In this document: piece after piece, positions 28,091 to 58,290 of the stretch
Numbering within the stretch: the first letter of the stretch is position 1
Layout of the letters: the number at the start of each line of letters is the position of its first letter
Assembly (NCBI GenBank): GCA_950295325.1
Contig: OX485804.1
Location: forward strand, 32,240,001-32,304,000
Source of the DNA: Polytrichum commune
Taxonomy: Eukaryota; Streptophyta; Polytrichopsida; Polytrichales; Polytrichaceae
Direction of reading: 5' to 3'
Length of the DNA stretch: 64,000 bases
Translations under genes and position numbers: made by a program
Notes under the pieces: generated by a model
The model's database searches: none
Told to the model about the DNA's origin: nothing
Seen by the model: the letters and a program-made list of their open reading frames with translations, nothing else

Positions 28091-30270
28091 AACATTTGAC
28101 TATGAGGATTTTTCCTCAAACTGATTTATTTATTTTTATCTTCAAAAAATTTCTCGTTCTTGAACTTTTACCTTTAAAATAGAAGGTGGATTATTTTGAG
28201 TTTCTTTTATATATTTTTATTACTTTTAAATTGTGATTTGTGAATTGCCATAGTGGTCCACCACTTTGCGGGGTTACTTTTAGTTATGATTTTAGAAGAA
28301 AAAAATAGAACTGATAAGGAATTGGGGAAAAAATTAATTCATTTAGCATTTAATCCCAAGAAGGAGAAAGTGAATCACTGAGGACTTCGGGCCTTCACCT
28401 GTGAAAGGAAAAAATACTCGTTAAGATAAGGTTAATCAAAAGGAAAACTAACTAGAGGTAGAAAATAACAAAATTAGAAAACATTACTAATTAGGAAAGA
28501 AACTAGCTTAGTGGGAAAAAATACTAGCTAGTAACAAAAACTAGTTAAGATGTTATGTTAGTAGATGCTAGCTAAGTAATGATTAGTTTGTTATTAGTAT
28601 GGGCTACACAAGACAAGTGAAGGTGTTCAACCAAGAGGACGAAATTGGCGTGAAGATTTTTAAAATGAAACCAATGGCGGAGGGGTCTCACTTATTTGTG
28701 AGAGGGATTAAAAATCTCCTCCTTCCACATTGTAAACTCTCTCTTTTTCCTGTCACTTGGATGAAACCCTACCTATGTGTAGTTAGGCAAAAAAACTCTC
28801 TTTGTTCTTCCATTTTCTTTGTGGTAAGGCTTGAACAAGCTCTTTTCCTACCTTCTCATAGTTCGTTTGTGTGTTTATTAAATACACAAAATCTCTCTCT
28901 CCCTGCCATTTAGAGGTAGGTTAGAAAGCATGTCTTAAGAGTTGAGATATTAGAGACCTTGGTAATTAATGATATAAATGCTCAGTTTATTGTCTTCATT
29001 CATTTTTTAATTTTTAATTTTTTTTTTCCTGTAGGGATTTCTTTGTAGCTATTCATAGTTGTTTGTGATTTGGTTGAGGGAGCAAAGAGTTATGAATTTC
29101 TAAAGTATGAGTACAAAATAAGGTAGCAGCTGTTGGATCAGACCTACTGGCCTAAAGAAAACTTCAATATCTATTATTATATTTTTCCAAAGTAGAGCTC
29201 CTATCTGACTTGGTAGGATTGTTTAGAACGTGTGATTTGATCGAGAAATAAATTTCCAAAGTTTGAATATATAGTTTGAGCATTGTTGCCTAGGTGTATA
29301 AAATCAATGTTGCCATGTGTGAGGTGGATGTGCAGACCTAGTTGATATTTTTTCCCTATTGAGAACTATATGATTTTTTTAGATTTAGATTTCAGGATGG
29401 AATTTGAATGAGATATACATTGAAGAGGTTTATTTTTTTCAAATTGAATATAGTCTAGGCTTCTAGTTGACTGCTTGTATTAGAATGAGGCTGTTAGATC
29501 CATCTCGGTTTACCTTCCTAAGATCCATTTTTTTTTCTAATATATATTTTTGTTAGTTTTTCAAAGGTGCATGATAAGCTCCAATCCGAATAAAAATGAA
29601 TTCATTATGGATTCTTAAATTCAAAGGTTAGATAGGTGGAGGTGGAAGGATTGGTTGAATGAACATTGTGATTCCAAACCCCATAAATTTTAGAATTCTT
29701 ATCTAGTTGGAGTGGATCTTAGATCTCTAAAAAGCTCATGATGCGTATTAGTGGATTAAATATCATAAAGCCAAAATTATATTGTTTAAAAAATAATACT
29801 CTGACCATTGAGTAATTTAGCTACAAAGAAAGAAGTAAAGTCAACTCTTGGGAAGTGGACCAAAAAATGTAAACATCCGTTGAAAAGTTCATAGAAGCGT
29901 TTGGAACACATTTTGAGGATGAGAAATATGATAAGGACTTAGCGTCTCGGCCTACATCAAACCCAAACCAAACAAGAAGCACTCATGTAAGTCAACCAAG
30001 TCCAACCTTCAATTTAGGATCGGAGGGAATGTGGCCAAGGTGTGTATTCCTAAACCCATTCACCTATCTCGTAAGGTCAAGTATTTCAACCACTTGACTC
30101 CAAGCGGGGTATCGAACTCCATTGTTCTCGGGATCCATTGATATGTTTCGTGGTAATAGTTTTGATTGTTAAAAAATTTCGTATGTAGTAAAGTGGGATT
30201 AATCACTGGTACGACTGTTCTGCATGTTGTTGGTGGAAAGGTGGGATTAATGATCCACAAATTCATTAAA
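28091..30270. other. AT-rich stretch up to the CACTA element, no gene supported
   Basis: A 104-codon open frame at 28.6-28.9 kb has no recognisable domain and lies in sequence resembling neither flank. It could be an LTR remnant (promoter-like C/T-rich tract at 28.73-28.9 kb), but no polypurine tract, primer site or gag/pol was found. Confidence 0.3.
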
Positions 30271-30296
30271 CACTATATTCGTTAAATTGAGACTTT
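30271..30296 (+). repeat. Left terminal inverted repeat of the CACTA element
   Basis: CACTATATTCGTTAAATTGA followed by GACTTT. It is an exact inverted match of the right end. The next 30 bp contain their own small inverted pair, GAGACTTTCTCTAGTCTC. Confidence 0.85.
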
Positions 30297-30799
30297 CTCT
30301 AGTCTCAAATTAATATATGGATCAAACAACATTCCGTGTTCCGAAACTATATTGCGAACAATCTCAAATATATTATATGTTCTAATATCCCAAATCTATG
30401 GGGTGTGGACATAAGCACATATGGTAGAGCACTCAACACCAACTTCATCAACAAAAACACTTTGGGTAGAGCACTCCAAACTAGTTTCACCCAAAAAACA
30501 TATAAAATGATTTCTATTATTAGCACGGTCAATAAAATATAGACATTGCAACATACAAAATACATGCAATAAATGCATTTTTCTTCAATGGAAAATTTAG
30601 TCCCAAACTTAATAAAAAAATGAACTTCACAACTGTATTGAAATATATAAAATGAATATTCATCCAACCCCAAACAATATAGCATTCGCAAGTTCTACCC
30701 AAACTTTGCCCCAAGTTTGAGGAGCACACATATGAGTAATATATATTCGTCGAATTACATATTACACTATAATCATGCTAACACAATCCTACCAACTTC

Positions 30800-33700
30800 T
30801 CATTCAACGTGGGTTGCTTCTTCTGCGATCCGAGCAAGGTTGTCTTTTGCAAAAGTTATGTACTTTTGAGGGATGGACACTGATCCACTATGATTTTTCC
30901 GTGGTTTCCATGCTATGAATATGGAATCTGTATCTACCCAAGACGGACCGTGCTCAGAATCCACCTTCCACCGAAAGTGTTGGTTTGTATCCCAGCCTGT
31001 ATAATGCCGAACAACATCTTCATTCCGTGCTGTCAGTCGGTAGTACTCTACTTGTATTTGTCGAAAATGAGGGCTGGAAGTTACAAAATTTGGTTTCGAC
31101 AAAGCTCTTGCCACCCACACTGGCTTTGCATATGTCTCATCTCCAGGACGCAAAATGAGCATATAACCTTCATGACAATCCACTGCAATGCGGAAAGATG
31201 GTGGCGGACGACTACTAGCAGGCCCCACATAATGGTCGTCCACATCAAACTCCTCTCGAACCTCTCCATTTCCCAAAAGACTAGCCTCCGAAGCTTGTAC
31301 ATTGACACGTGTTTGTGGCCAAAACCCATGCCTTAAAGTAAGGGGTGTATCTTGATGAAGGTTTGCCAAAGCACCACGAACACGTGTCCAATATTGTATC
31401 CAACTTCCGTAACGAAGCCAACACGATCCACCAACATCCGCTACCCTCAAACTCTCCCAATATTGTATGAAGCCTGATATGCCTTTACAAATGTCCTCCA
31501 AATTCTTCATTAGTATTGGTTTGCAAGGCTTAGGCTCTCCGTCAGGCAACATCGTCCTTCCCTCCCCATCAACACGCCATACAAGGAGACCCTCCGGCGG
31601 GCTCCAGTCTTGTGACGTGCACAACAACTTGTATTGCATGGCGGGGACACCATCGTCACGCACGTAGAACCGAAATTGTTGTGCCTTCGTATGTCTGATC
31701 AATCGGTGAGCTCCGCTTCGAATATACGGTTCTATAAATGCCTTGAAGTCTGGAACCTCCTCGATCATATGGGGGATGACGGGAATGTTCTCCAAATCCA
31801 TGTACGACTTCATCAACAATGGGATTGTCGGAAAATCCTCCTCGCGCAACTTCATGCTCCACCGCCCAAAAGATGCATCGATATCGTCGTGCGTGTAGCC
31901 TACCAATAGAAAGGATACAAAAACCTCCTTGAAAATGCCTTTCGCAACCAACAACGACCAATATGCAAAAACATATCTACTTTTATTGTCCTTCGCACAA
32001 TTGTCCAATTGGACACGCAGAGTTGGGGGCAAATTCTTGGCAATCACATCTTTACTTGGTGGCTCCGGCAAGGAGTGCACGCATACATCTCTTCCATCCA
32101 AGACCGCTTCATATAGAGGTGTTGATCCCGAGTTTTCAAATAACAATCTTGATGAATAGGACGGCGGTTTCTCCAAATCACGTAAAAGCTTTGCAAATGA
32201 CCCTATCGTGTGGTTTGAATCCGCCGGATACAAATCAAGAGCATAATGAGCATACTTGACATCACCATGTCCATGTGCAATCATCCCTGTAAAGCCAACC
32301 CAATGGTTTAATATTCAACTATAACACCAAAAAATTCACATGGTGTACATCTATGGCCCCAAATACAAACCTAAAGCACAAATTTGTGTTTAGGTAATGC
32401 AATGCAATTGTTATCGAAATCACCTGTAACCGATACAGGAAGCTTAAAAAGGCCGTCCGTGGCTTTGATTCGATTTGCAAAACATGGTGAGGCTATTTTG
32501 GCATGGTCCATTTTGTCATGGATGATTGTAAGGACCTCCAAAGGCCTAGAGATGGACAAAGCTCTATTTGTGTAGTAATCATTACGGTGTGCCTCTTGCA
32601 TGTTCACATGCTTGAAATAGTTCATTTGATGTGCGGCATAGGACTCTGTCCCCATCGTGTGTGCATCTCGAAGGCGTTTCAACTTCTCGCATTTGGAACA
32701 ACGGGCAAATTTGTCGCCTCGTCTTTTTGTGATGTATTCGCTAAAGTGAGATTTTTTTATTGCACTCAGTTTCGACAACGAAATAGGGTCCAACCCAGCC
32801 TTTTCGCCAACTGCGTTTACGTCCAACAATATGTCTTTCCATTTCGTGCCTGTAGGAAGAACCTTCTCCACAACCTTTTCACCGGTTGCGAGTGTGCGTG
32901 TTTTGTGCGGCATTGCATCGGCAAGGGGGACAATGATGGTTGCCAGAGTGGCGGTTGCTTGTCTCGTTGCTTCCCTTGGTTTCTTTAAGCCCGTATTCCC
33001 ATGGTGACGGGACCGGCGGCCCTCCTTGGCATACGCGGCTTGTCTATAAAATTCCGCTTTCGACACACCGTGAATGATGTACCATGCGGTACAACACACG
33101 TCTATGCTCTCAAGGGTGATGACCTTGCGACCCGCTCCGTTCACATGTATCGCCCTATGGACATCAAGCTTTTTGGTGGATCTTAGACGGAAATCTCCAA
33201 GCCACATTTCCTCGCGGATGGCCTTCAATTTATCCCTTGGGAACAATTGGCAACAACGATGTACACAACAATCCTTTGTGACAACTTCTCTAATGGACTC
33301 CTCACAAAGCAACCTTTGACGTTTACACTCATTTGCAGACAGAGTAGGACGTGCCAATGTATCGTACTTCCGTAGGCCTTTGCGTGGCCGAATGTTTGCT
33401 TGGAGCTCTTCTTGGATTTGGATGTGTCGTCGCTCATGCTCATGCAAATTAACCCCATCAATTCTCACATTCCTCAACGGCCACCTTCGCAACGAGAACC
33501 TATGAGTTGGATTCACTTCAGAATGTACGAGTGATTCCAATATAACAACTCCAACGTCCTCGGTGCCAAGGGGATTTTCATCAATGCAATCTTGTGGATG
33601 TGTGTTACGACAAATACCCTCCGCCACAGCAACTCCACTGTCATTAACAAGTACTACATCCAAATTCACCCATGAAGCTCGTGAAAGCCCAGCACATTCC

Positions 33701-33867
33701 ACAGTGGGGCAAGAAGGGGCAGATGGCGAAGGACTCCCCAAGTCACCTTCATCTGCACTGTCATCAAAACTATCCTCCCCAACAATGTCTAGCTCATCCC
33801 CAGACGTAGATTGGGTGTTGCCCATGTCGTCAGAGAAGGAATCCCCTCTTCCACCAACTCCCTCCAT
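30800..33867 (-). CDS. CACTA-type transposase, DUF7869-like catalytic domain (976 aa, two coding exons)
   Basis: Coding exons are 33867-32424 and 32286-30800. The join uses ACAG|GTGATT and TTACAG|GG, with matching phase, and restores KLPVSVTG-MIAHGHGDVKYA. ATG 33867 lies five bases after an acceptor (GTGTGTAG), implying a non-coding 5' exon. The N-terminus is acidic, and residues ~230-330 are Cys/Arg-rich and probably bind DNA. The catalytic core carries DKMDHAK (D~454), VQLDNCAKDNK (D~576) and GYTHDDIDASFG (D~615-618), the acidic boxes of DUF7869-type, RNase-H-fold transposases. SSWVDTD and other basic/aromatic tracts close the C-terminus. Frames are intact, so it may be functional. It is transcribed toward the left end, away from the cargo unit. 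Confidence 0.82.
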
Positions 33868-34035
33868 TGCGCCTACACACATGGAAAGAATGTAAGGGTC
33901 CAAAAGAATCAAATATCGGAAAATGCAAGACACCATGATCAATGGGGACACCGAGGATGAAGACATTTCCAACACAACTACAATGTGAACTCCCAACACT
34001 GTGTGCAAGTCCAAAACAAGTTCCAGAAATTATTT

Positions 34036-35185
34036 TGGTGCGGGTTTGGGTCGACCGGCCCAAACCTCATAAGGGTCGGACTGAACCCCTAACACACTGG
34101 GGTAGGGGTTTGGGTCGACCGACCCAAACCTCACAAGGGTGCATCCACCCACACCAGGTAGGGGTTTGGGTCGGTCGACCCAAACCTGATAAGGGTCAGG
34201 AAAAAACCCTAACACACTGGGGTAGGGGTTTGGGTCGACCGACCCAAACCTCACAAGGGTGCATCCACCCACACCAGGTAGGGGTTTGGGTCGGTCGACC
34301 CAAACCTCATAAGGGTTAGGAAAAAATCCTAACACACTGGGGTAGGGGTTTGGGTCGACCGACCCAAACCTCACAAGGGTGCATCCACCCACACCAGGTA
34401 GGGGTTTGGGTCGGTCGACCCAAACCTGACAAGGGTCAGAAAAAAAACCCTAACACACTGGGGTAGGGGTTTGGGTCGACCGACCCAAACCTCACAAGGG
34501 TACATCCACCCACACCAGGTAGGGGTTTGGGTCGGTCGACCCAAACTTGATAAGGGTCAGGAAAAAACCCTAACACACTCGGGTAGGGGTTTGGGTCGAC
34601 CGACCCACACCTCACAAGGGTGCATCCACCCACACCAGGTAGTGGTTTGGGTCGGTCGACCCAAACCTGACAAGGGTCAGAAAAAAACCCTAACACACTG
34701 GAGTAGGGGTTTGGGTCGACCGACCCAAACCTCACAAGGGTACATCCACCCACACCACGTAGGGGTTTGGGTCGGTCGACCCAAACTTGATAAGGGTCAG
34801 GGAAAAACCCTAACACACTGGGGATAGGGGTTTGGGTCGACCGACCCAAACCTCACAAGAGTACATCCACCCACACCATGTAGTGGTTTGGGTCGGTCGA
34901 CCCAAACCTGATAAGGATCAGGAAAAAAACCCTAAGACACTGGGGTAGGGGTTTGGGTCGACCGACCCAAACCTCACAAGGGTCAGACATAAACCCTAAC
35001 ACACTAGTGGACAGGTTTGGGTCGGTCGACCCAAACCTGATAAGGGTCAGACAAAAATCCTAACACACTGGGGTTGGGGTTTGGGTCGACCGACCCAAAC
35101 ATGTTAAGGGTCAGACATAAACCCTAACACACTAGTGGACAGGTTTGGGTCGGTCGACCCAAACCTCATAGGGTCAGACTCAAAA
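34036..35185 (+). repeat. Array of 20-bp near-palindromes in a 120-bp tandem repeat (about 19 copies)
   Basis: A ~120-bp unit carries two near-palindromes about 59 bp apart in opposite orientation: TTTGGGTCGACCGACCCAAA and TTTGGGTCGGTCGACCCAAA. The first kind lies at 34109, 34229, 34349, 34470, 34710, 34831 and onward. Spacer words AACACACTGGGGTAGGGG and GGGTGCATCCACCCACACCA are nearly invariant. The last units near 34950-35160 use a different spacer, CATAAACCCTAACACACTAG. The array lies between the transposase start and its likely promoter, so it would be intronic or in the 5' UTR. Open frames across it are by-products of the repeat. Confidence 0.92.
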
Positions 35186-35469
35186 CCCGCCAACACTAGT
35201 GTAAAGGTGAAGGTTCGCCCAAGTACACCACAAAATCCGGCGTATAATGCGGCGGATATTGCGTGGTGTGTTGAATTTGAGCTCATTGCAAAGTTCACGG
35301 TGGGGTTGCATGGTGTGGATAGGTGCTCATGAACTTGCATGCTATGGATAAGTGCTCATGAACGGCAGCATGCACGAACCTTGAAGTACAGCTCCTACTA
35401 AGAGTTCTCTCTACGAATTCGACAGCGGGAGAAGAGAAAAAAATGACCGACTTTTGGGGGGTGCGCCCC

Positions 35470-35475
35470 TTTATA
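35470..35475 (-). promoter_or_regulatory. Candidate TATA box for the transposase transcript
   Basis: Minus-strand TATAAA sits within GATAGTATAAAGGGGCGC. It would start transcription about 30 bp downstream, leaving a 5' exon of roughly 270 bases that ends near 35165 (ATGAG|GTTTGG), just before the palindrome array. The coding ATG at 33867 follows an acceptor, which fits a long 5' UTR intron. Confidence 0.45.
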
Positions 35476-35899
35476 CTATCCACCTCCGCTTCCCAGACTT
35501 AGTCATTGGATGCCTTCCCCGCCTTCTTCTCTTGCAGAGGTTATTTCAAACCTCCTGACAAAATTCCCCGTTTTCTGTTTATAGTAGAAAAATGCGCATC
35601 TATCAATGCCCCTCTGATACCCCAGCCGTCATATGACTTAGTCTATGTTATTTAATCTATTTGTTTTGTTTTGTGTGGATATGACATACGCCATTGGGAG
35701 GAAGGGTGGCGGCCACATTAATTTTTTCAAGTATCATCAAGGTATATTTTAACCAATATGTAGACCCAAACACAACTCCATTCAATGCTTTCAAGTGTAA
35801 ACCTATTTAGGTGGGGTTTGGGCCATTTGGAGGCTGCAATTATGAGAGAGTTTCCAAGGCTTGAGGCCATTGTCATGATGAATAGAATTATTTATTTGT

Positions 35900-35925
35900 C
35901 CCCCCTAAACCCTAAACCCTAGAAC
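35900..35925. repeat. Short telomere-like tract
   Basis: CCCTAAACCCTAAACCCTAG: two and a half plant-type telomere units inside the transposon. Confidence 0.6.
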
Positions 35926-36044
35926 CTTGCTCTATTATCTCGCATGCAAGAGTGGCAATGACGAACGTATGTGGACGTTGTTAAGGGGATACTAATTACC
36001 AATGTCCCTTTCTAGTTCAATCTTTTAATGTTACTTGAATCCAT

Positions 36045-36900
36045 CCTCAAGTTTACTAATGTGTGAGAGCAAAACATCCAAGATTGGACCCTAAACCCTT
36101 ATAACATCCACAACATGAAATACGCATTGACTAAATACAAAACCAATTAGGATATCATGTTTAAACGTCCCATATAACATATTAACATGATCAAGATTGT
36201 ATTTACTATGACCTTCCGATTAGACTCTTCTTCATATTATGCAAACAATATCTGTTATATCTTCCTCCATTATCTAATACACGTGGAGAGAACAATGAAT
36301 AACAACATGATGTTGTGCTTCTCCGATTTACTTTTACATGACATTCCATATATTAAATACATCATGAACGATGGTTTATTAGCGACTAATATGTGATTCC
36401 CTAAAGTGAGCGAAACATCCAAAGTTGGACCCCTAGCCCCTATTAACATCCACAATATTTCATGTTATTTGAATAAACACACGACCAATCAATATATCGC
36501 GTTTAAACGTCTCGAATAACAAATTAACATAATCAACATCGTCTTCACTATAACCTTCCTATAAGACTCTTCTCACGAGTAAGACAATGTTATACATTGA
36601 CATTGGATAGATTAATATGTTGTAACCCTATCTCCTATCTCCTAAACCCTAAACCCTAAACCCTAAACACCAAATGTAGTTGTGGTTCACTGATGCCCCC
36701 ATATACAAACAACATCTATTTTATCTTGCGCCATCATCTAATATACATGGAAGGAACAGGGAATAACAACATGATTGCTTGAATGGCTTCATTTGATGTT
36801 GTGCTTATCCCATTTACTCTTATATCACAATCTATATATTAAATAAATCATGAACCATGATTTATTGGCGACTATGTGATTCGTGAAAGTCACGATCTAA
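36045..36900 (+). repeat. Diverged direct duplication (~350-470 bp units)
   Basis: Unit 1 (36.05-36.41 kb) and unit 2 (36.40-36.90 kb) share, in the same order, AACATCCAAGATTGGACC, TGTTTAAACGTC, GACCTTCC...AGACTCTTCT, AACAATATCT...TATCTTCC, GGAGAGAACAATGAATAACA, TTGTGCTTCTCCGATTTACT and a TTTATTAGCGACTA block. Unit 2 is longer by about 120 bp, and that extra part contains the telomere-like tract. Confidence 0.65.
36641..36668. repeat. Interstitial telomere-like repeat (CCCTAAA)4
   Basis: Four consecutive plant-type telomere units, ending CTAAACACC. They sit in the extra segment of the second duplicate copy at 36.6 kb. They are too short and too internal to be a chromosome end. Confidence 0.85.
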
Positions 36901-37397
36901 GGGATGTACTTAAAACTTGAGCATGTTCGCATTTTCAAATAAGGATCGTGCATTTCAAAACCCTTGCAAAATGCAGTTGGGGAAGGTATTCATTTATTAG
37001 GCTCCACACTCAATTATTCTAAATTGTTCCACATGTTGGGGGGTGTGGGTAATCTTTTTTTTTTCATTCAATATCGTGTGAATTGTTGGCATCATTGGTA
37101 AGGACTAAATGTGAATGGTTACATCGTTAAATATAACGCAATTATATGGTTTAAATTTTCTAACATGCTCAAACAAAAGAGAAACCAATGCCTTCAATGA
37201 TTTTGGAAAATTTAGGGTATGGTGTCATGTAAGTAGGGGATAAGTATTAGTTTAGCATAAAGTTTTGTTGTAAGAATGCGCTGGCTATATAAATGGTTAG
37301 TTTTGTAGAATAACACATTTTATGTAGCACCTTAGGGTACTCCATAGTTCTTTTGAAAAAACTAATAAGGGTTTAGAGCAGGGTCCAAAAGAACCTA

Positions 37398-37658
37398 AAC
37401 CCTAAAATTCGCTAATTTGAGATTTTCTCTTCTCTCAAATTAATATATGGACCACAACAACATAGTGTAATGTTTGGGTCGTCCTACCTAAACCATCTTC
37501 ATATGAGATCTTAATTGCGTTCTTGATATGAACACCCGCTTCAAAGTATTTGCATCTTACAACATTCTCCAATGTACGTGCAATTTTATCCATGCTCTTA
37601 TATTTGTAACTTTCTCAAAATGCCGAAAAAATCCCAAATTAACGAATATACCGATTAA
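37398..37658. mobile_element. Termini-only derivative of the same CACTA family, nested inside the element
   Basis: Its left ~60 bp (ATTCGCTAATTTGAGATTTT, then CTCAAATTAATATATGGACC) copies the element's left end at 30277-30332. Its right ~190 bp (AACACCCGCTTCAAAGTATT, GCATCTTACAACATTCTCCA, CAAATTAACGAATATA) copies the right end at 46910-47090. Both halves are diverged and the terminal CACTA itself is lost. It is therefore an old deletion derivative (MITE-like), or a junction between two related elements. Confidence 0.65.
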
Positions 37659-38599
37659 AACAAATGCAGCCTACAAAATTAGTGACTTAGCCTATAAAAT
37701 TTTGAAAGTGTAGGACAAAGAGCCTATGGACAATTTAAAAACATAGGATATCAACCTATGTGATAAAAACATTTAGGAAATTTTGCCTAAATTTTTTTTA
37801 AAAGAAAGGATTTTAGCCATTCATCCTTCTTCAAATTGGGAAATTAGTTGGCCGAAGTACATATCTTTAGGCTATATCTTGCAGGAAGAGTAGAGGTCGA
37901 ATGAGAACATGGTGAGAACTTTCACCCTTAAACTCATTTGAATTTTAGCAACCTTTCAAAACTTATAATCAACTCTTTAAAAAAGACTTGGTTAATCCTT
38001 GGCCTTCAAACGTGGTGAAAGGCTTAGCCAGGTTCAATTCCTGCCAACTTGAAGGATCCCACTTAGTACTCAAATTTTGATTTTAAAACCTACAACATTA
38101 AAAGATATGAAGGATTTTAACCTACTAAAATTTAGTTTTGAGGCAATTGGCGAGGAACTTACAAACTCAAAAGGTTTCAACTTACAAAAAGTTGATATTG
38201 TAGAATGCAACCTATGCTATGAGGCAAATAGCCTATGTACTCTTAAAGAGGTAGGCCCGCTAAGGGTTTAGAGTCAAGCGTTATGATTTAGGTTTTAGGG
38301 TTCCCTGTAACCCTGTTTCCGTGGGTGCCCTAATCCTGTGGGCACCCTATTCATGCGGTTGGGGGCCAATGCCCGAGGTAAACAAAACCCCAACCGTCGC
38401 ATTTCTCATTTCTTTCTCTTTCTCTCTCTCCGCGCCTCGCTTGGAAGCGCCGCAGCGAATCAGGCTTGGTGTAGGTTAACCCTTCATTCTCATGCGTTCA
38501 TTGCTTTCTTCTGCATCTTCTTTTCCCTCCTTTCTTTTGCTCTTCAATAGAATAGCCCTTGTGCAATCTTAGAAGTTAGGAAGAGTTTTGAAAGAAACA

Positions 38600-39184
38600 G
38601 AAACATACGGAGGAAGGTTTTAGAGCGTGAGAGTGAAGGAAGTTAGCAAAAGAGTGTTGAAGAGTATTGGAAAGTGCTGAAGGAAGTTAGTAGAACATTC
38701 GGTAGTAGATAAAGCTTCGGTTTGGGAGGTCCAGGTGTTTGTACTGGAAGTTTTAGGAGTGCTTGTGAAATTCAAGAGTTCTTTAAGAGTATCAAGAGTT
38801 GTTTGAGAGTTTTCGAAGTCGTTTGAGAGATTCAGTAGTTTTGTGAGGGATTCAGGAGTGGGTTTAGACATTTCGAAGTCTTTTGAGAGGTTTAGTAGTT
38901 GTGTGTGAGATTCAGGAGTTGGTTTGGACATTTCGAAGGCTTTTGAGAGGTTTAGTAGTTGTGTGTGAGATTCAGGAGTTGGTTTAGACATTTCGAAGTC
39001 TTTTGAAAGATTCAGTAGTTCTGTGTGAGATTCAGGAGTTGGTTGAGAGATCCAAGAGCTATTTGAGAGAGTTGATACTTGTTTGAAAGTTTCTCATTGA
39101 ACTTTCTCACAGTTTGTTTGATATTGAGAATTATTGGAAGAACAACCTGCTCTACTCCAAATTGTCTGCACAACATCTTTGAAA
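38600..39184 (+). other. Candidate non-coding first exon of the cargo gene, with a 60-bp tandem repeat
   Basis: A C/T-rich, GC-richer promoter-like tract (38.38-38.57 kb) precedes this segment. The segment ends in a plausible donor, GAAAG|GTATTG, at 39184/39185. The next acceptor, TTTCTTACAG, lies directly before ATG 39797. From 38758 to 39075 about five 60-bp units repeat (TTCGAAGTCTTTTGAGAG, then AGTTGTGTGTGAGATTCAGG, then AGTTGGTTTAGACAT). On the minus strand they read as a 20-residue repeat, but with no gene signals. Confidence 0.45.
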
Positions 39185-39329
39185 GGTATTGTGTTTTATT
39201 TTAACCAATATGTGTTTGTATATTCACGGTTTTGTAGCATACACAATGCATAAGCATTGTATATGCTAGATGCCAAGTTTAAAAAATATATTAAAATAAT
39301 AATGTTTGGGGAGACGACCCAAACACAGC

Positions 39330-39515
39330 CTCTTGTTTGGGTCGACCGACCCAAACACAGCCTCCTGTATGGGTCGACCGACCCAAACACAGCCCCAAAC
39401 ACAGCCCCTTGTTTGGGTTGCTCGACCCAAACACAAAACAAAGCATCATGTTTGGGCCGAACGACCAAAATATAACACAAAGCATCATGTTTGGGTCGAA
39501 CGACCCAAACTAAGT
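39330..39515 (+). repeat. Palindrome cluster in intron 1 of the cargo gene
   Basis: Two good copies of TTTGGGTCGACCGACCC (39340, 39370) and three variants (TTTGGGTTGCTCGACCCAAA, TTTGGGCCGAACGACC, TTTGGGTCGAACGACCCAAA) are spaced by about 30-40 bp. A further variant lies near 39750. All are within the inferred intron 39185-39796. Confidence 0.85.
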
Positions 39516-39796
39516 CTTCTAATTATAAACTCATAAAGAAATCCATGATTTTTGCATCAATATAAAATTCACATCAACCTAAAATAATAATCAAGGAATG
39601 CATCAAGGAAAAATATCAAGGAATCCTGCATGTCACAAACAATATAAAATGCAAATCCACCCAATAATCACAACATTCTTATTATCATTACAAATGATGC
39701 TGAAATATATAAATACACAATCCACCTAAACCTATTCATGTCGTAGATGTTTGGGTCGAACGACCGAAACTAACTTTGCGCATTATTTTCTTACAG

Positions 39797-42700
39797 ATGG
39801 CTCCAAAGAAAAGACCCGGCGAAAGGTGGTTCATGCTTGCGCCGGACATGTTGTGGCAGGAGCACGAAACCCCGCAGGATGACTCCTATTCCCCTAAGGA
39901 CGGGCTTGTCCTCGCTTGGTCTATTCAAGTAGTCAAAGCCTCAACATACAAAATGATTTTTGTTGTCAAGGTGGGAACCGTGGAGAAACACACCTGGGCG
40001 ACTCTTACGGGATGGGAGGTCGCATCGGTACAGTTTCTTGGAGACTATACTGACGTCATCCTCGAGAACTCGGCTGTGCAGAACGCGCATATGTTCATGC
40101 ACCAGTTCTCCGAGCCTTTCGACGCACTCTATGTAAGAGAGTCATGTGTCGAACCGGAAGTTATCAAGCCGGAGACAATATTTATCGATGGGAGTACATC
40201 GAATACCAAGGTCTCAAGCCGGTTCACAAAACTAAAACATGCAATAACCGTGCTGAACAGGGGCCTGCAAAGCAAAACCAAATCACAGCAACCTGTGAGG
40301 CGGAAAGCTCCCACAGAGGAAGGAGCAGGGTCGTCAAGACCTCAATCGGTGAGGATGCCGCTACCAGTACCGGCTGACTCGCGTAGGACCACTCCCTCCC
40401 AAACACCTACGAATAGTGAGACCCCTACACCTTCTGGGAGCCGTCAAACAACTCCATCCAAGAGGGCGAGAGAGTCATCTGTGATGACTGACGAGCCAGT
40501 CTCACCGGAGTTGCGCATGCCGAAGCCCGGCGAAGAGGTGGATGCAGGGGAGCTGCAGAAAATCGTGAACAATTTCACGACGAAATGCTCCCATTGTTTT
40601 TTCATAGGCAGGGATTTCAAGTTCGATGTGAACATCAGCCAGTGCCATCTAGCGCCACCGGAGAAGTGTGTCCGGGCAAAGGAGGACGCCTACGTTGACT
40701 GGATAATCGCGCAGATCGTTTGCGAGCAGTTTAAAGACGACAGGCAAACGATTGTAGTGATGCCACAGGGTCTCAAGAAAATGCCTACACCTGAAATGTG
40801 GCCAACAATTCAAAAGGGCGATTTTTGGCTGATAGACGGCCAACACAGCGTGGAGGCATCCAAGAAAATCCAACTCATGAATGAGTGGGACGATCCCAAC
40901 AATCAGAAGGAAAAGCTGAAGGTTTGGAAGACACTGGTGGTGTGGTCTGACGACGAGACCAAGCTCAGCGACATCTCCCGGTACTTCAATATGGGAAACA
41001 AGAAGAGGGCCTACCAAGCTTCCTGGATAAGGAATATCATGGCCTCGCGGGAGGTGTGGGAGTTCTATGGTAGGCCTCCCAAGGAGAGGGAGAATGCGAA
41101 GGACAAGAATCCCAAGTGGGAGGTGAGTATTGTTTGGGTCGACCGACCCAAACTCCTGGTGCAGTCTTGTGTTTTTTTAGTTTGGGTCGATCGACCCAAA
41201 CAACTGTTGCAGTCTTGTGTTTTTTTTCAGTTTGGGTCGACCGACCCAAACTCTTGTTGTAGATGTTGGTCATGATATGGTTTGGAAATCACATGTACTT
41301 AACTAACACGCATTCAAATGTTATGTTTTGTTCACGTGTAGGATTTCAAATACCAAATGATCAACAAATTCTCCTCCATTGATAATTCGAGCCACAAGTA
41401 GAAGAAATACAGCGACCTCAAGGAGGAGATTTACTTGATTACAGCATCGGACTCAGTTTGGAGGAAGTGGAAAACCGTGTTTGAAAAACACGAGACGGGG
41501 GATTTGATCGATCCCGACACTGGCATTTTCTTCAGCCAAACCTCGCGCTTCAAGCAGATGAAGCCTCTCGTGAGAGAGTTCTTTAGAACTCTTCAAGGGC
41601 TGTCAGAGACGGAGGTGGAGAAGGCGGCATCGCACATCCTGCACGTGGCACCCACGGCCAAGAGGTGCTGGGTGCACCCGAAGATTGTCTTCGTAAAGCC
41701 CAAATCCTTCGTTCCTTCATGCTACACCATGAAGGAATGGACGGAGAACAGGAAAAAAAAGACGACTATCGTGCAGGAGCTGCATAAATTGGTGCCAGAG
41801 AGGAATATTGTCGTGGACGGCGAGGTTCATGGGGCTAACTGGAGAGCATTCAAAGATGAATATAAGTTCACCAGTGCCTCCATGGCGGCTCTAATAAGGG
41901 AAGCAGGGGACGACTTCTTGCGGGCCAAGATGGTGAAGGGTGGGAAGAACCGGGCGCTTCCGGATCACACAGCGCGTACGTTCTCGAACTTCATCAAGGA
42001 GAAGAAGATTGTCCAGTTTGAAGGGGACGCTTACTTCAACCTTGTCACCTTCGGGCCTTTGAAAATTCAGGGCTGGCCAGGTCAAGACGCCAGAATGGCG
42101 ATAAGGACAAAAGCAAGGGACCGCTTTCCTTTTGGGATGATTGATTTTAGAAATATTCCTAGAAGCTCATTTGAGGGCACGATGAGCACCCTCTTCTACG
42201 ACCCCTTCTTAACTAAGTTCGTCGATTATGCAAGCCCTAAGTTCAGGGAGGTAGATATCTGGCTTTGGATAGTCGAGGATAGAAGGGCGGAGCAGGTGTA
42301 CGAGCTTGTCCGGAAACTGCAGCCGGAGTATGCAGTGTCCAAGTCTCACTACATCGCCGCACCGGCGGAGGGGGCTTACACAACGTTGAAGGACAAGAAG
42401 ACCAAGTTCGTCAACGTCTTGTGTTTGTACTTCGTGTACAAAGCGGAGTTGCTGAAGGTGCCAAACCACCCTATATCCCGGATGGACAAACTCTTCCAAG
42501 TTCTAGAAGGGTTGGGTGCGAACAAGTGCCTCTACGATGAGGCTAAATACGCGAACTATCCTGCAGATGAGCTGCGGATGGAATTTTACATGAGAATGAT
42601 GAGGACGCTGACGAGGAGAGGGGACTGCATCTTCAACGTCTTCGGAGGCTCAAAACCTGTCTATGCTGCTATGGTAAGTGACTTTCTATAGCTCGTAAGC

Positions 42701-44566
42701 AGTTTGGGTCGATCGACCCAAACTAGGCTCTTTGCAGGTTTGGGTCGACCGACCCAAACTACACATTGTACTTAGTCTTGTTTATGTGATTGCCTCGACA
42801 AATTCTAATTTCCCTATAACTTGGATTGTGTAGATGTCGGGGCTGAATATATACTCCTACATAGAGGATGGCGATCTGCCATTTTACAGGGTGCAGAAAT
42901 CGCTGGCGAAGAAGATGGACATCCTCGATTGGATCCCGGGTAGCTACGTCGACGAGGTTGTTCAGGGTGGCGAAAACCCTCTTGATAGGGTGAGGCGCAT
43001 CAACCCGGAGGAAATGGCCATGAGGGCCACGACCCAAGTTCCCGAACCTCTAGTCGGGTTGCATCCGGGCAATCCGTCCCGCACAGAAGGTGGCGAGGTT
43101 GAGGAGGAGGAGGAGGAAGAAGAGGAACACGAGGAGGCGGAGAAGGAAGGCGACGTCGAGGAAGGGGCAACGGGCTTCACGCAACAATCCGAAGCCCCTC
43201 AACGGAAGAAGGCGATGCGGGCGGCAACCCCGCAGAATAAGCTTGTGCCCGTCCTGACTGTGGACGATGCACGGGACATGTACTCCAGGGACGCCACCGC
43301 GACGTTCAGGGAGAGGAGGAAGTTAAAGGGGAAGAAGCTGTATGGCGACTACTCCGTGGAGGAGACCATTGCCATAAGTAGCGAGGACGACGATGACATT
43401 GAGCTCGCCAAACGGCTAAAATCAGATCCCCCGTCCCCGACAGCGTTCGCTGGCATGGTTAGGGTGAAGCCCGAGGTCCTGACTGTGGAGGAGGCGAACG
43501 AGAAGATGAGGAGGGACGAGGAGCAGCGAGTCCGCCTGCAGAAGGCTGCCGCGGAAGAACCCTCAATGCGGAACGAGGTCGCAGAGCTGAGGGCTCTCCT
43601 GTTGGAGCAGGAGCGTCAAAGGGCGATGGCCCAACCTCCGTCCCACGCCGACTTGATATCACAAGTGATACAAGGAATGTGGGCGCAAGGTTTGGTGGTG
43701 GCTCCCTCCAGCTCCTTCCCGCACTTGCCCCCCGGCTTCCCTCCGCAGAGCATCCCTCAGCAGCCTGTGCCGCAATCGTCTTTCAGCTTCCAGCACTTGA
43801 TGCGGCCCCACCAAGTTCCGTACGCGCCGGTCCAGCAAGTGGATGACCCCAACATCTGGCGCGTTTCTGGAGCCTCCTCCCCTTTGGGCCCTCCACCACT
43901 TCGGCCCCCCATAGTCATGGCGCCACCCCACCAATCGGACGACCCCAGGATGTTTGGGTCGACCGACCCAAACCCACCATCCACTGTAGTGTCCGAAGGG
44001 CCCTCTCCAGATGCAGGACAGTTTGGGTCGGGCGACCCAAACCCCGTTGCAGCGCAGTCCTCCCTTGACCAACATGGGTGTCAACTAGACACGGCCATGC
44101 TAGATGTTGAAGGCCTGCAAGGGCCTGGTGATACCTCTACTCCTAACCAAATCGATGAACCCATGCATGATGCACATGCGGAGATTGGTTTAGGACAAGG
44201 GCCTGATGCCGATCGTTTGCAGGAGAAGGTTCCTGACGTCGTCGGAGAAGGCGGTGGCGAGAGAGGCGGGGCAGCGGGGACGGTGGAGGCTTCCATATCG
44301 TCGAGACATGACCAGGGCGAGGTAATACACTGAGCCCTCCCAGTTTGGGTCGACCGACCCAAACTTCCTGGGTCACTGTCTTGTTGGCGTGGTCGTGTCC
44401 CCCTTGCTAGGAGGAAATGCACACCCCCTGCCCCCCCTGGTCTACACTTGCTCCCCCTCCCCCCAACGTGCCCCCCCGCGATCCCCTTCGTCTCACCTGC
44501 ATTCGACTACGCTCGACCTTGGCGGCGCGCAACCAATTTTGTAGATGTAGAATTAGGATAGTGTGA
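39797..44566 (+). CDS. Large cargo protein: DGQH (ParB/DGQHR-like) domain plus degenerate beta-class DNA-methyltransferase-like region
   Basis: Exons 39797-41122, 41342-42673, 42834-44321 and 44411-44566 are all phase 0 with canonical splice signals (~1,433 aa). ATG 39797 directly follows an acceptor. Residue ~345 onward reads DFWLIDGQHSVEASKKIQ, the DGQH signature shared by ParB/sulfiredoxin-fold and DndB/DGQHR proteins. At ~728 is YDPF. Across the exon 2/3 join is GDCIFNVFGGSKPVYAAM, then MSGLNIYSYIED, which has the layout of a beta-class N4/N6 methyltransferase (DPPY box first, FxGx SAM box last). The key residues are altered, so activity is doubtful. Residues ~170-260 and exon 3 are Pro/Ser/Glu-rich linkers. 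A TAG at 41399-41401 interrupts exon 2 in frame (SSHK*KKYSD), so this copy may be a pseudogene. The methyltransferase reading is inference. Confidence 0.62.
41133..41250 (+). repeat. Three palindrome copies in cargo intron 2
   Basis: Copies lie at 41133-41152, 41181-41200 and 41231-41250. The middle one, TTTGGGTCGATCGACCCAAA, is a perfect 20-bp palindrome. They are separated by a repeated spacer containing TGCAGTCTTGTGTTTTTTT. Confidence 0.92.
42703..42758 (+). repeat. Two palindrome copies in cargo intron 3
   Basis: A perfect palindrome at 42703-42722 and a near-palindrome at 42739-42758, inside the 160-bp intron 42674-42833. Confidence 0.92.
43953..44041 (+). repeat. Two palindrome copies inside coding exon 3
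   Basis: 43953-43972 reads in frame as FGSTDPN. 44022-44041 (TTTGGGTCGGGCGACCCAAA) reads as FGSGDPN. Both sit in the Pro-rich linker and keep the frame open. Confidence 0.9.
44344..44363 (+). repeat. Palindrome copy in cargo intron 4
   Basis: TTTGGGTCGACCGACCCAAA lies 22 bp into the 89-bp intron 44322-44410. Confidence 0.9.
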
Positions 44567-44818
44567 ATGCCCTCGTTCACCGCGCCCCCTCCCCCCCCCC
44601 CCCGAATCAAATTGTACATAGAGATTTGTAAAAATAAAATTATTATTTTTGGCGCCCATATGTTTGCATCCGTGTCCCAATGTATGTTGTTCCCTTGTAT
44701 GTTTTTGTTGCCACCAATGGTCCAATTCTTCTTGTGTTTGCACAAAATTTCCGTTCTGCTTGAGATGGACATAGCATAACATAGTCCTCGCCGCCTTCTC
44801 TCGCTCGTCGCCGCAGGG

Positions 44819-45629
44819 TTCGGAGCATAGCGTCGCGGCTCCCCACCGATCCTCTCCGAAGAGTGTGGAGGACAGCGCGGTGGTCCCCCCGATTTTGCCC
44901 TCGCCACCTTCGCCTCCCAAGACCCGGTTCCTGGTGCTAGACCTCAACGGGGTCCTTGTCCAGTGCGTGCATTGTCCGAGGGTCCCAACGGTGCCTTTCT
45001 GCAAGCCCGAGAACGCCAACTACGATGGACCCCCCGCGTACATCAAAAGCAAGCTAGTGTACCTCCGCCCGTGGCTTCGGCGCTTCCTACAGGTCGCCCT
45101 ATCCAAATGGTGGGTGATCATTTGGAGCTCCATGAAGTCCGAGAATACCCAGGCCGTTGTGGAGTTCATCTTCAAGGGACTCCAACCCCCGTGCTTGGTC
45201 CTAGGACAGGATTCTTGTAAAACATTGTACACCCCCGAGGGCAGGGTTGTGAAGAAGCCCAACAACCCCGCCGTAAACCAATTTCTTAAGGTCTTGAAGC
45301 CAGTCGTATGGGACCAGCGTCCGACCATGGTCGGCTGTCCCTACGACGTTCGCCCCACCCTTGACAACACGTTGATGGTGGACGACAGCGCTTCCAAAAA
45401 CATTTTGAACCCGACCTCCAACTTCATCGTTTGCCCCACGTGGACGGTCGAGAAGGTCCGAGACCGCTTTTTGTTAGACCTACTTAAGTACATTCAAACG
45501 CTCGTGGGGAGCGGACTACCCGTGCCCCGGTTCCTTAGTTGTAATCCGATAGGCGAAAGATACATAGATCCGAAGGACTATATGTACAGAGAGTTGTACG
45601 CTCACGCGAAATATAATAAACTCATTTGA
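44819..45629 (+). CDS. FCP1/NIF-type HAD phosphatase-like protein within the CACTA element
   Basis: The frame opens after an acceptor (TCGCCGCAG, ending 44818) and runs 269 codons to TGA at 45627-45629. HAD boxes are visible. FLVLDLNGVLVQC is box I, with Asn in place of the second Asp, a form common in plant FCP1-like proteins. WVIIWSSMKSENTQ is box II. TLMVDDSASKNI is box IV with the DD pair. FCP1-domain enzymes dephosphorylate Ser/Thr of the RNA polymerase II CTD or related targets. There is no ATG before box I in this exon (SVEDSAVV begins with GTG), so it must be spliced to something upstream. An ATA|GTGTGA donor at 44563/44564 would fuse it in phase to the methyltransferase-like protein. 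Whether fused or separate is unresolved. Confidence 0.68.
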
Positions 45630-45748
45630 GATACTACATGGTGTGCCATTGTGTGTGATATAGTATGCCTCAATTGTATATCGATTTTCTCATGCTCCCC
45701 CCTTGCCCCCCTCCCCTTGGGTTTTGTTTGTTTTAATTTTGCCATCAG

Positions 45749-46101
45749 CGTTTGGAGCCCTCGATTGAGATCGTCAGCGAATCAAACTTGGGGAGCTTCT
45801 TCTACGAGACCGTCTACGATGCCGCGTCCACCATCGACTACTCCAAGGAGCCTCTTGACGCCGGCGTCGTCGATAGCCCCCCACCCAAGCAAATCTTCCG
45901 GCGATCTCCGTCCCCGTCGCCGCTCAAGGGCATAAATCGCAAATGCGTCCGGACGTCCCCCTCTCGGCCCGGCGGCAGTAGTACACCTCAACGGCGGCTG
46001 CGGATGGACGCTCGGCCTACGAAGAGTGGCACCCTTCCTATTCCTTTGCGGGACGCATTGCCCCTCCTCGCCGACTCCGACGGGAACGCCCCCGGTGACA
46101 A
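45749..46101 (+). CDS. Probable exon of unknown product downstream of the FCP1-like frame
   Basis: It lies between acceptor GCCATCAG and donor GACAAG|GTGAAT, phase 0 at both ends, and encodes 117 residues starting RLEPSIEIVSESNLGSFFYE. The remainder is Arg/Ser/Pro-rich (PPPKQIFRRSPSPSPLKG). The GC-rich codon use resembles the preceding exons. It may belong to an alternative form of the cargo transcript that skips the FCP1 stop. No domain was recognised. Confidence 0.45.
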
Positions 46102-46257
46102 GGTGAATCCCCCCCCCCCCCCAAAACATGGTTAACCGCGCATTACAATCATCCGGCACTTAAAAAATGAACGTGTGACACGTTTGGGTCTTCCTCCCTA
46201 AACTAACACGTGTGTTCTTGCATTCACGCGTTGCATGTTGCTCCCACCCGTAGACCT

Positions 46258-46554
46258 ATGCGGGCTAGTGCGTCCGTCGAGTTGGAGCGTTTCTACTCCA
46301 TGACCAGAAATGCAAGACAGTCCACTTCATCGTATTCGAATTCTTCGTCGTATAATTCGGGCGGCCGACGGAATCCAAAATGTGTTATTGATGGCGGTCA
46401 CCCCAAGAATGGCTATAGTCGCGGGGCGGAGATTTTCAGGAATGTTGAAGCAATGCGAGCAAAAGAAGCCGCAGCAAAAGAAAAAGAGGCAAAAGAAAAA
46501 GAGGCAAAAGAAAAAAAAGCAAAAGAAAAACAGGTAGTCTCCGAGGCTAGATAG
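46258..46554 (+). CDS. Small lysine-rich coiled-coil protein or last exon
   Basis: Opens just after an acceptor-like CACCCGTAG, with ATG at 46258, and encodes 98 residues. The first half is Ser/Asn-rich (STSSYSNSSSYNSGGRRNPK). The end is a repeated AKEKEAKEKEAKEKKAKEKQ helix, typical of a charged single helix or coiled coil. TAG at 46552-46554. It could be the final exon of the unit before the element's right terminus. No function can be assigned. Confidence 0.4.
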   Translation: MRASASVELERFYSMTRNARQSTSSYSNSSSYNSGGRRNPKCVIDGGHPKNGYSRGAEIFRNVEAMRAKEAAAKEKEAKEKEAKEKKAKEKQVVSEAR

Positions 46555-46711
46555 GCCATAGTAGGCGTAGGGTTTTGGGCCATAGGCAAGAACATTTTGG
46601 GTCGCACTATCCAATGGATGTGTTGTGTTAGCATGCTATGCATTTTACATGCCACACTTTGTATGTTTTTTTTTTTGCAATAATATAAGTGTCACATGAT
46701 TTCCCCTTCCA

Positions 46712-46960
46712 TATGGTCTAAGGTTTGGATTGCCCTACCTAAACCATCACAAATATGAGTTTGGAATATTTTGTATGTTATATTATATTGGTTCACATAT
46801 TTCCCCTTCAATATGATCTATGGTTTGGATTGCCCTACCTAAACCATATTCATACAAGTTTTTGTGCGATAATATGAATGTTTTAAGATTTCCCCTTCAA
46901 CTTGGCCTAAGGTTTGGATTGCCCACCCTAAACAATCCCAAATATTGAGTTATTAACGGG
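46712..46960 (+). repeat. Subterminal repeats near the right end of the CACTA element
   Basis: Three ~85-bp units near 46710, 46798 and 46888 carry TTTCCCCTTC(C/A)A, then GGTTTGGATTGCCCTACCTA and AACCAT. The word is a decayed version of the internal palindrome (TTTGGGTC...CCTAAA), with a related one at 37469. Subterminal repeats of this sort are typical of CACTA elements, where they bind the element's own protein. Confidence 0.7.
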
Positions 46961-47068
46961 GTTCTTGTTCTAAACACCCGCTTCAAAGTGTTCGCATCTT
47001 ACAACTTTCTCCAATATGTGTTCCATTTATCCTTGTTCTTATTTCTGTGAATGTCTCAAAATGCCCAA

Positions 47069-47094
47069 AAAGTCTCAATTTAACGAATATAGTG
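47069..47094 (-). repeat. Right terminal inverted repeat of the CACTA element
   Basis: Its complement reads CACTATATTCGTTAAATTGA then GACTTT, identical over 26 bp to the left terminus. Confidence 0.85.
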
Positions 47095-47860
47095 TTAGTG
47101 GTGTTGGAACCCCTTATTTTGGATGAATTGAAGCTTAAGGTGATTGACTAACTTTGGCCAAGAGATGGTCACATAAAAATGAACTCCTAGGCAAACTTTC
47201 AAGAGCACCATTTTAGGTGTTGGGTGCAAGCATGGTGAAGTGGACATCTCTTGATCCATGCCTAGGTTTAAGTGAAAGTAATTCAAAATTATACACTTAA
47301 GTTGAATTTTGTGAAGAAAAGTTTCATAGACATGTTTAAATACATATTGATCTACAAAGCCAAGCAATTTATGATGAAAAACATAATTCCAAGAAAAGTC
47401 TACATATTTTAGAAGACAGTACAAGTGGTGTGCAAGTAGGTGATATCAAACAAGTAACTATCTATATTTTATTAAAATAAGATAAAATTACATTAAATTT
47501 TTTGGCATCTACAAAACTTTGTGATGAATTCAAGGAATATTAAAAAAAATTCCAACTTCAAAGGTCATGAGATTTACGTTCAAAACCAAATTCAACCATT
47601 TGCTTTTGAGCATCAATTTCAAGGATAAGTTTTGAAGATCTCAACTTTATATTCTACATTTTAGCATTTAAAACGACAATAGTGGTCATCATGGAAAAAT
47701 TCCAATTTAAACACTTTGGTAATACTTTTAGGCCTTTGACCAAAAAAATTATGGTTTTAGTATACTAAAGCATTTTTTTGGTCCACTTTACCATGCTATC
47801 ACCCTACTCTCAAAGGTTTGTCATTAGATACAATTTCATATAACCATCGTTTTGGCCAAA

Positions 47861-49984: not shown

Positions 49985-50455
49985 TTGGAAAGAAATTCAT
50001 CACATATCCTTTAAACCTAACAACCTGCTATGAACCACATGTGAAAGACAGCCAAAGAAGCCACCAAGAGATTGAAGAAGTAGCAGCGACAGAAACTAAA
50101 ATCGATCCATATTCAGTCTGCATTAAGTTTGAAATCCGGAAGTGACACAAATTCATAACTGATGCTTTAAAAAATGTAAGAGGGCTCGTCTAAATCTCGC
50201 TCACAGTTAAAAGTACAAAATCTCACAAGGATCAGGAAAAATTTCACCACATATCCTTCAACAACCCGCTCATGAACCCATAGGAAAGATAGCCAAAGAA
50301 GGCACCAAGAGATTGAAGAAGTAGCAACACGAACCAAATTCAGTGTGCATTCATTCAGGTTCGAAATCCGAAAGTGACTCAAATTCATTACAGATGATGC
50401 TTTATAAAAAAAACAAAAGGGCTCTCAGAGTTAAATGTACAAATTCTCAGAAAGG
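49985..50455 (-). repeat. Tandem duplication of the PRAT gene's 3' flank (~245 bp)
   Basis: GAAAGAAATTCATCACATAT then CCAAAGAAGCCACCAAGAGA, TTGAAGAAGTAGCA and TTTGAAATCCGGAAGTGACA near 50.0-50.15 kb recur with few changes near 50.24-50.40 kb. The inner copy runs to the stop codon of the gene, so the 3' UTR and polyadenylation region may be doubled. Confidence 0.7.
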
Positions 50456-51112
50456 TTTCGGACCTTGTTGATCGGCGAAGGGGAAAAAGCCTGCGAGGGA
50501 AAGAGGGGGTGGCAGCGTGAACGGCGGGAGAACTGGCAAGTTAAGGTGCAAATGGAGATGGTTGATGTTGATGTTAACACCACCTTCTTTCCTTGAGGCA
50601 GCAGGGACAGCTAAGGAATCCTCCGACGTTGTGGCAGCCAAGGCAGCACGGGGATTATTCATGTACTCCAAAACAAAAGAGAATGCTCCGAAACTAAGAC
50701 AGCTCTGGGCAAGCGCTTGCGGTGTACCCGGGGTGCTCAGGGCTAATCCAGTGGCGCAGCCTGCCAGACCTGCGTTCCATGCGTCTTCTTTACCTCGCAG
50801 CCTCTTCAAGTAACAAGAAACGATGCTGTGCACACCTGACAAGAGCGCAAACGTCTTGGCCGAAGTGCCACCCTCCCGCAACGCGACTTTAAATCCCTGC
50901 CTCTTGAACAACCCGGAGCCGAAGCCGAAGACGGAGCCCATTAGCCCCCCCGCAAACCCGTCCGCAACGCCCTTGAAGAGGCAGAAAGTAGGGTGCGAGG
51001 GTCCTCCAAGTGCAGCCGGAGATTCAGAGCTTCCTACATCAATCACATCCCCGCTCTCGCCGTAGCTTCCCTCCGTGTCGTCGCCGCTGGGATTGGCGGG
51101 CACCATCGCCAT
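50447..51112 (-). CDS. Tim17/Tim22/Tim23 (PRAT) family membrane protein, 221 aa
   Basis: Intron-less and apparently complete. ATG 51112 ([12 protein letters not shown]) is the first in-frame methionine; the open frame upstream has only non-ATG codons and is taken as 5' UTR. From about residue 42 come [60 protein letters not shown], and [20 protein letters not shown] with [20 protein letters not shown]. These are four glycine-rich hydrophobic segments with the PRAT spacing. The sequence most resembles plant PRAT proteins of the TIM22-like/PRAT2 group, which sit in the inner envelope of plastids or in mitochondria and act in protein or metabolite import. The C-terminal tail ([20 protein letters not shown]) is unusual. 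Location is inferred from family only. Confidence 0.85.

Positions 51113-58246: not shown

Positions 58247-58290
<44 letters not shown>

Follow-up and report, generated by a model that had tools for sequence, protein, structure and literature searches.

Transposons that counter silencing are already known as a kind. For VANC of the VANDAL (MuDR) transposons of Arabidopsis, the accessible text of two accounts describes motif repeats upstream of and within the introns of element genes, with arrays whose size varies between copies and a motif type that differs between related proteins (PMC5735166, PMC10398659); that motif is the 9-base YAGTATTAY in the available part of the former (PMC5735166). 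Fungal DNA transposons that encode TET/JBP proteins carry a cargo related to DNA-modifying enzymes, and escape from silencing is proposed for them in the portion of the source at hand (PMC12730594). Fusions of a ParB fold with an N6_N4 methyltransferase are described as phage-enriched in the accessible part of another report (PMC12704722). The element considered here lies in a 64,000-nucleotide stretch of the moss Polytrichum commune (assembly GCA_950295325.1, contig OX485804.1, positions 32,240,001 to 32,304,000), hereafter the window, whose first letter is position 1. It spans 30269-47096 and is a member of a high-copy transposon family of about 17 kb, whose inverted repeats (AACACTATATTCG...) bracket a DUF7869 transposase in two exons and, on the opposite strand, a 1653-codon cargo gene. 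The element stands out by the architecture of the cargo protein, together with palindromes whose type sorts by protein clade without exception. The element is made up as follows:

30269-30296, plus strand: 5' terminal inverted repeat, 28 bp, AACACTATATTCGTTAAATTGAGACTTT, 100% complementary to 47069-47096
30800-32286, minus strand (open 32286-30803): transposase exon B, DUF7869, to the stop codon (Pfam PF25273, E 1.6e-40)
32424-33867, minus strand: transposase exon A from an in-frame Met (open frame, splice borders)
34045-35163, no strand: 19-fold palindrome array (GTTTGGGTCGNNCGACCCAAAC) ahead of the transposase start codon
37400-37653, no strand: fossil mini-element from both element ends (direct repeats D12, D15, D16)
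39336-39769, no strand: group of six palindromes shortly before the cargo start codon
39797-41122, plus strand: cargo exon 1, weak PH-like domain (residues 15-160) and ParB/sulfiredoxin-like domain (residues 274-404, DGQHS)
41123-41341, plus strand: intron 1, three palindromes
41342-42673, plus strand: cargo exon 2, the larger part of the methyltransferase-like domain together with a helical middle region
42674-42833, plus strand: intron 2, two palindromes
42834-44321, plus strand: cargo exon 3, what is probably the last part of the methyltransferase-like domain and a linker, acidic and helical, with two coding palindromes
44322-44816, plus strand: intron 3, one palindrome
44817-45629, plus strand: cargo exon 4, HAD/NIF phosphatase-like domain (DLNGV), stop codon (Pfam PF03031)
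45737-46554, plus strand: open reading frames flanked by splice-like borders, downstream of the HAD stop codon
47069-47096, minus strand: 3' terminal inverted repeat, 28 bp, perfect partner of 30269-30296

The 22-bp palindrome GTTTGGGTCGNNCGACCCAAAC occurs at 34 sites in the element (at most two mismatches in the 20-bp core) and is absent from the rest of the 64-kb window, with none in 100 shuffles. Besides the array next to the transposase, six sites lie in what is probably a leader intron of the cargo gene (39336-39769, from splice-like borders read by eye), six in the three cargo introns (3, 2 and 1) and a degenerate one in the mini-element (site 37473). Exact 20-bp core sites are present in 30 of 30 exon-2 loci, the window included, and the array varies in size, with 19, 16, 16 and 11 palindromes across four copies. 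The arms are 9-10 nt long and the 2-nt centre varies, and G...C flanks are found at 249 of 251 exact sites.

A second clade of the protein has a palindrome of its own. Many of the 119 metagenome relatives read through into introns, so that repeated peptides in them reflect the DNA motif. Clade-A peptides (VWVxRP, LGRxTQ, FGSxDPN and variants) appear in 28 of the 119, in some within exon 3, and a second set (FTNxRS, LRTxVR, YERxFV) in 23, where shuffling gives 0.08 proteins on average; no protein among the 119 is common to both lists. The three reading frames of the B peptides converge on TTTACGAACGNNCGTTCGTAAA (core TACGAACGNNCGTTCGTA), which has the same length and the same CG-NN-CG centre as the A palindrome. 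On an exon-2 tree of 53 rows (P0054-P0069, mostly fragments, are left out of both model and tree, and the exon-3 protein P0007 out of the tree), the 7 A rows and the 17 B rows need one change each, with support of 100/100; no shuffle of 500 was as low, and 29 of the 53 rows carry neither motif. Some of the clade-B proteins P0041 and P0043-P0046 show other read-through peptides (FTDARP, LRPRGRK), a hint that there may be a third palindrome whose two arms have changed in step.

Clade B is also found in the window's own genome (407.8 Mb searched, in 64 contigs), where the query P0022 matches at least 92 places at 82-97% identity (92 scored of 1172 candidates). All eight clade-B loci fetched have 4-6 B sites each (at most three mismatches) and no A motif, and an open palindrome search in three clade-B loci returns mainly the B motif. 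The B motif (at most two mismatches) is in turn absent from the window and from 30 loci of clade A. A single element of clade B was read whole:

C2 ~65817197-65833595 (L077:4198 to L079:3096): clade-B element, 16,399 bp, AACACTA ends, TAGA duplication

Its anatomy is the same as that of the window element. The DUF7869 transposase, again on the opposite strand, is 63-64% identical and has two stops in its second exon, exon 1 is 34% and the HAD part 43% identical to the window's. There are 32 B sites and no A sites within it, and 11 A and no B sites in the stretches read outside. Next to it lies an exon 1 in reverse orientation that is 80% identical to the one in the window, so that the clade-B element appears to be inserted in an element of clade-A type.

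Recurrence of the whole unit, termini and both genes together, had been set as a check in the preliminary description of this DNA and was found across the genome. The first 130 bp of the element have at least 27 full-length places at 100% identity (40 scored of 998 candidates) and the last 150 bp at least 16 (40 scored of 918), the window included in both, and cargo exon 2 has at least 98 places at 92-100% identity (98 scored of 1216). The 5' ends listed number 40, and for eighteen of them the exon-2 list has a match 8-45 kb downstream in the same orientation; a 3' end is listed too for 14 of the eighteen. Because pairing was possible only among the matches listed, the 22 unpaired 5' ends are not evidence of loss. 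Eleven of the 14 complete sets have a distance of 16.3-17.5 kb between the starts of their two matched stretches, corresponding to elements of about 16.4-17.7 kb, and the other three measure about 20, 27 and 38 kb. A transposase and a cargo that never share termini, the result named beforehand as refuting a single element, did not occur.

Both minus-strand exons of the window's transposase are open, in line with the first reading of an intact DUF7869-like enzyme. Eight 5' ends were inspected: seven keep the transposase throughout the stretch read (a stop interrupts it in one of the seven), and the eighth (L005) has just 40 transposase residues. In copies fetched on purpose it is present in six of six (two of which are of a more diverged 92% type): exon A is 93-98% identical over the part read, with a stop in one copy, and exon B is 94-98% identical, with one stop in three. 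The HAD exon is found in four of four such copies, stop-free and 97-98% identical. The fossil mini-element sits at the same internal place in all four copies compared, the window included. The family is presumably autonomous. Three exon-2 copies at C3:10601879, 10685654 and 10769496, about 84 kb apart on one strand with one TGA stop each and equal scores, look like a large tandem segmental duplication.

The ends set the family apart from standard CACTA elements. Exact 26-bp CACTA termini had been described; the exact inverted repeats are real, but the true repeat is 28 bp long, starts AACACTA and contains those 26 bp. The two bases directly before CACTA are AA in every one of the 18 clade-A ends read (L001-L008, L049-L055, the window, L064 and L065), and the start is AACACTA in eight of eight paired copies and in the clade-B copy, with the duplicated target ending two bases outside CACTA. 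The 3' terminus is GTGTT in the window and in eight of ten chosen copies, those with the 3' end caught; the other two, whose 3' end lies outside the stretch fetched, were dropped from the scoring of target duplications. Each of the eight two-ended copies has a direct duplication of 4 bp (ATGA, CCTT, TTAA, TCAT, ATTA, CTTG, TCAT and CCAT). Together with the clade-B copy (TAGA) this makes 4 bp in nine of nine scorable copies, instead of the 3 bp expected, and the window copy has no duplication (flanks ATTA versus AGTG). For this reason the window copy may have recombined.

The AACACTA start and the 4-bp duplication argue against a standard CACTA/EnSpm element, and the CACTA label was given up on these grounds and because no CACTA transposase model matched at E up to 1. 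A Pfam scan for a CACTA-type (Tnp2) transposase gave DUF7869 alone at that threshold, and the two may still be remotely related. The CMCT group, in the accessible text of its description, allows target duplications of 2-5 bp and has mostly 5'-CA termini, so that there may be a distant tie to it (PMC12730594). A literature search for DUF7869, thin in subscription journals, found no paper.

The four plus-strand cargo exons have GT..AG borders, all in phase 0, and join into one frame of 1653 codons, stop included. The window copy has one in-frame stop at 41399-41401 in exon 2, a codon that is open in the 29 other copies compared. Substitution patterns indicate that exon 2 is under purifying selection: the median ratio of nonsynonymous to synonymous substitution rates (dN/dS) is 0.22 over 391 of 435 pairs from 30 loci including the window (the 44 pairs with dS of 0.02 or less were dropped, and pairs are not independent), and the window against each of the 29 other copies gives 0.16-0.38 throughout. 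Among the 98 listed exon-2 copies, 74 are stop-free (recounted by eye; the window's row begins after its own stop). A 20-bp tandem repeat with 11 overlapping registers lies at 38743-39093 in the probable cargo leader. The open stretches at 45737-46554 end in a Lys/Glu/Ala-rich tail and are possible alternative 3' exons.

The cargo had been read as ParB/DGQHR-like, methyltransferase-like and HAD-like, and these assignments are supported, two by structure comparison and the HAD domain by its match to Pfam NIF PF03031 (E 3e-14, above the curated cut-off). Fold searches with the modelled exon-1 region favour a ParB/sulfiredoxin fold, and searches with a model of the relative P0003 favour a beta-class DNA amino-methyltransferase fold; the top matches of the latter include M.BceJIV, CcrM, MTA1 and an N4-cytosine methyltransferase of rotifers. 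The models thus support a cargo protein with both ParB-like and methyltransferase-like folds. P0117, a distant exon-1 relative at 30% identity, comes from a contig of 270 kb, longer than that of any other match. The ParB-like reference motif is DGQHR, catalytic amino-methyltransferases have (D/N/S)PP(Y/F/W), such as DPPY, and the catalytic motif of HAD/NIF proteins is DxDx(T/V). All three enzyme-like domains have altered catalytic signatures, so the cargo protein is probably a binding platform or clamp, not a methylase.

The current thinking is that the DUF7869 transposase would cut and paste the element through its 28-bp AACACTA repeats, making the 4-bp target duplication, and that the ParB-like/methyltransferase-like/HAD protein would recognise the palindrome of its own family as a dimer. 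It may then act on the chromatin of the element, most likely keeping both transcription units open against host silencing. The specificity of the palindrome would limit this effect to the element's own kin, and the CpGs flanking its centre could be a natural place to interfere with methylation. As one explanation this has about an even chance of being right. The transposase is the presumed agent of the reaction, the cargo protein is the candidate reader of the palindrome, putatively as a dimer, and an anti-silencing outcome is suggested by analogy. The initial comparison with VANC was a guess, and it is better motivated now because the palindromes of the leader and of the introns are clade-specific and go with the clade of the protein. 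More tentatively, and with chances somewhat short of even, the system might amount to ParB-parS-like self-recognition in a superfamily of eukaryotic transposons that has a transposase type of its own. The palindrome (20-22 bp) read by the protein would be scattered across the element's own genes, at least two mutually exclusive pairs of palindrome and protein, alike in their CG-NN-CG geometry, would have arisen in a single genome, and each clade would protect or activate itself only.

Several observations weigh against self-recognition by the cargo protein. The methyltransferase-like region gives weak Foldseek E-values, of which the best is 0.013 and none is as low as 0.001, and its predicted local distance difference test (pLDDT) score reaches 80 in just 12 of 23 ten-residue blocks. 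DGQHS stands at 90% or more in the 39-row exon-1 alignment A6 (36 of 50 exon-1 matches used; 14, mostly fragments, left out), so that the Arg of DGQHR is Ser, a position judged by motif resemblance alone. The conserved Arg is important for the nucleotide-binding motif of the ParB fold in the accessible text of one report (PMC12704722). At the expected place of DPPY, assigned by strand order in the predicted model and not by residue-level alignment, DFR[NS]IP is found in seven of seven rows of alignment A1 and is near-invariant in 55 rows. In the HAD motif, Asn takes the place of the second Asp (DLNGV, both in the window and in four of four copies). Two of the 34 palindromes lie in coding exon 3, where regulator binding does not require them, and among eight clade-B loci an exact 22-bp B palindrome is a rarity, with a single site in one locus, the conserved part being the 18-bp core. 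The transposase also diverges between the clades and is a possible reader itself, and the subterminal repeats at about 46.7-46.95 kb, which resemble a degenerate palindrome, would suit it. Many copies are not autonomous, as four of the six transposase copies have one stop in the part read and 24 of the 98 listed exon-2 copies carry a stop, and in none of the copies read were both genes seen fully open.

The chief rival, unlikely but well ahead of the others, is that the palindromes are regulatory or transposition sites of the transposase and that the cargo protein has its place of action elsewhere. Spm TnpA uses subterminal sites in this way, the transposase co-diverges with palindrome type (63-64% identity between clades A and B), the largest array adjoins its start codon, and both the subterminal repeats and site 37473 are degenerate palindromes. 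However, the near-perfect palindromes are all internal (array, leader, introns and exon 3), with none within 2.7 kb of either end, degenerate repeats aside. An active DNA amino-methyltransferase that labels its own palindromes at N6-adenine or N4-cytosine is a good deal less probable. The beta-class fold with its matches to known enzymes would suit it, as would the enrichment of ParB-N6/N4 methyltransferase fusions in phages noted in the accessible text of PMC12704722, but DFR[NS]IP replaces the expected catalytic motif and the S-adenosylmethionine (SAM) loop reads FGG[ST]K.

Equally improbable is an action in RNA, where hairpins in leader and introns would control splicing or export of element transcripts. 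The palindromes do lie in stretches that are probably transcribed, to judge from the sequence (leader array, leader, three introns and exon 3), yet a loop of 2 nt is too small for a full RNA hairpin, and the kept geometry of arms, varying centre and G...C flanks fits a dimeric DNA site. Least probable of all, and very much so, is that the cargo gene was captured as a passenger and does nothing for the element. Gene capture is known in plant transposons from the available part of PMC13317346, but the low dN/dS and the predominance of stop-free exon-2 copies speak against it, as do the two deep clades and the fact that the one element of clade B that was read has the same gene set.

Elsewhere in the window, minus-strand open frames at 58218-62124 resemble an NFX1-type zinc-finger helicase, and one at 50447-51343 resembles a plant Tim17-domain import protein, both by eye.

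Among the known systems, phage and prophage ParB-N6_N4 methyltransferase fusions resemble the cargo protein in having both folds in one protein tied to mobile DNA, and differ from it in that the moss protein belongs to a eukaryotic transposon, has added PH-like and HAD parts and has changed signature residues. The combination is otherwise reported mainly in phages, and the main text of that report, as far as accessible, has no mention of transposons, plants, fungi, algae or moss by term counts (PMC12704722). No relatives were confirmed in GTDB genomes (one pattern scan) or IMG/VR (one alignment scan), and no literature on CACTA transposons with ParB and methyltransferase domains was found in a search that was thin in subscription journals. 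With CACTA/EnSpm (CMC) elements the family shares a CACTA pentamer near the ends, large size and repeated motifs, but it differs in the AACACTA start, the 4-bp duplication, the DUF7869 transposase and the lack of a match to CACTA transposase models; DUF7869 is hereby placed within a complete mobile element. The TET/JBP transposons of fungi are similar in that their cargo is related to DNA-modifying enzymes, whereas the enzyme fold and the transposases are others, and no clade-specific palindromes are described in the accessible text (PMC12730594).

The likeness to VANC and VANDAL extends to an element-specific motif in non-coding tandem arrays (32 of 34 sites are non-coding), to variable copy number and to a motif type that changes with the protein clade. 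Unlike VANC, the cargo protein has ParB-like, methyltransferase-like and HAD folds; a 22-bp palindrome takes the place of YAGTATTAY and a DUF7869 transposase that of the MURA-like transposase of VANDAL. Two mutually exclusive specificities, with many copies of each in one genome, would provide a natural experiment on silencing escape and on the switching of DNA-binding specificity, in which the palindromes offer directly testable protein-DNA pairs. If the proposed self-recognition is true, a VANC-type, sequence-specific recognition of self would have evolved independently from a ParB-like and methyltransferase-like protein.

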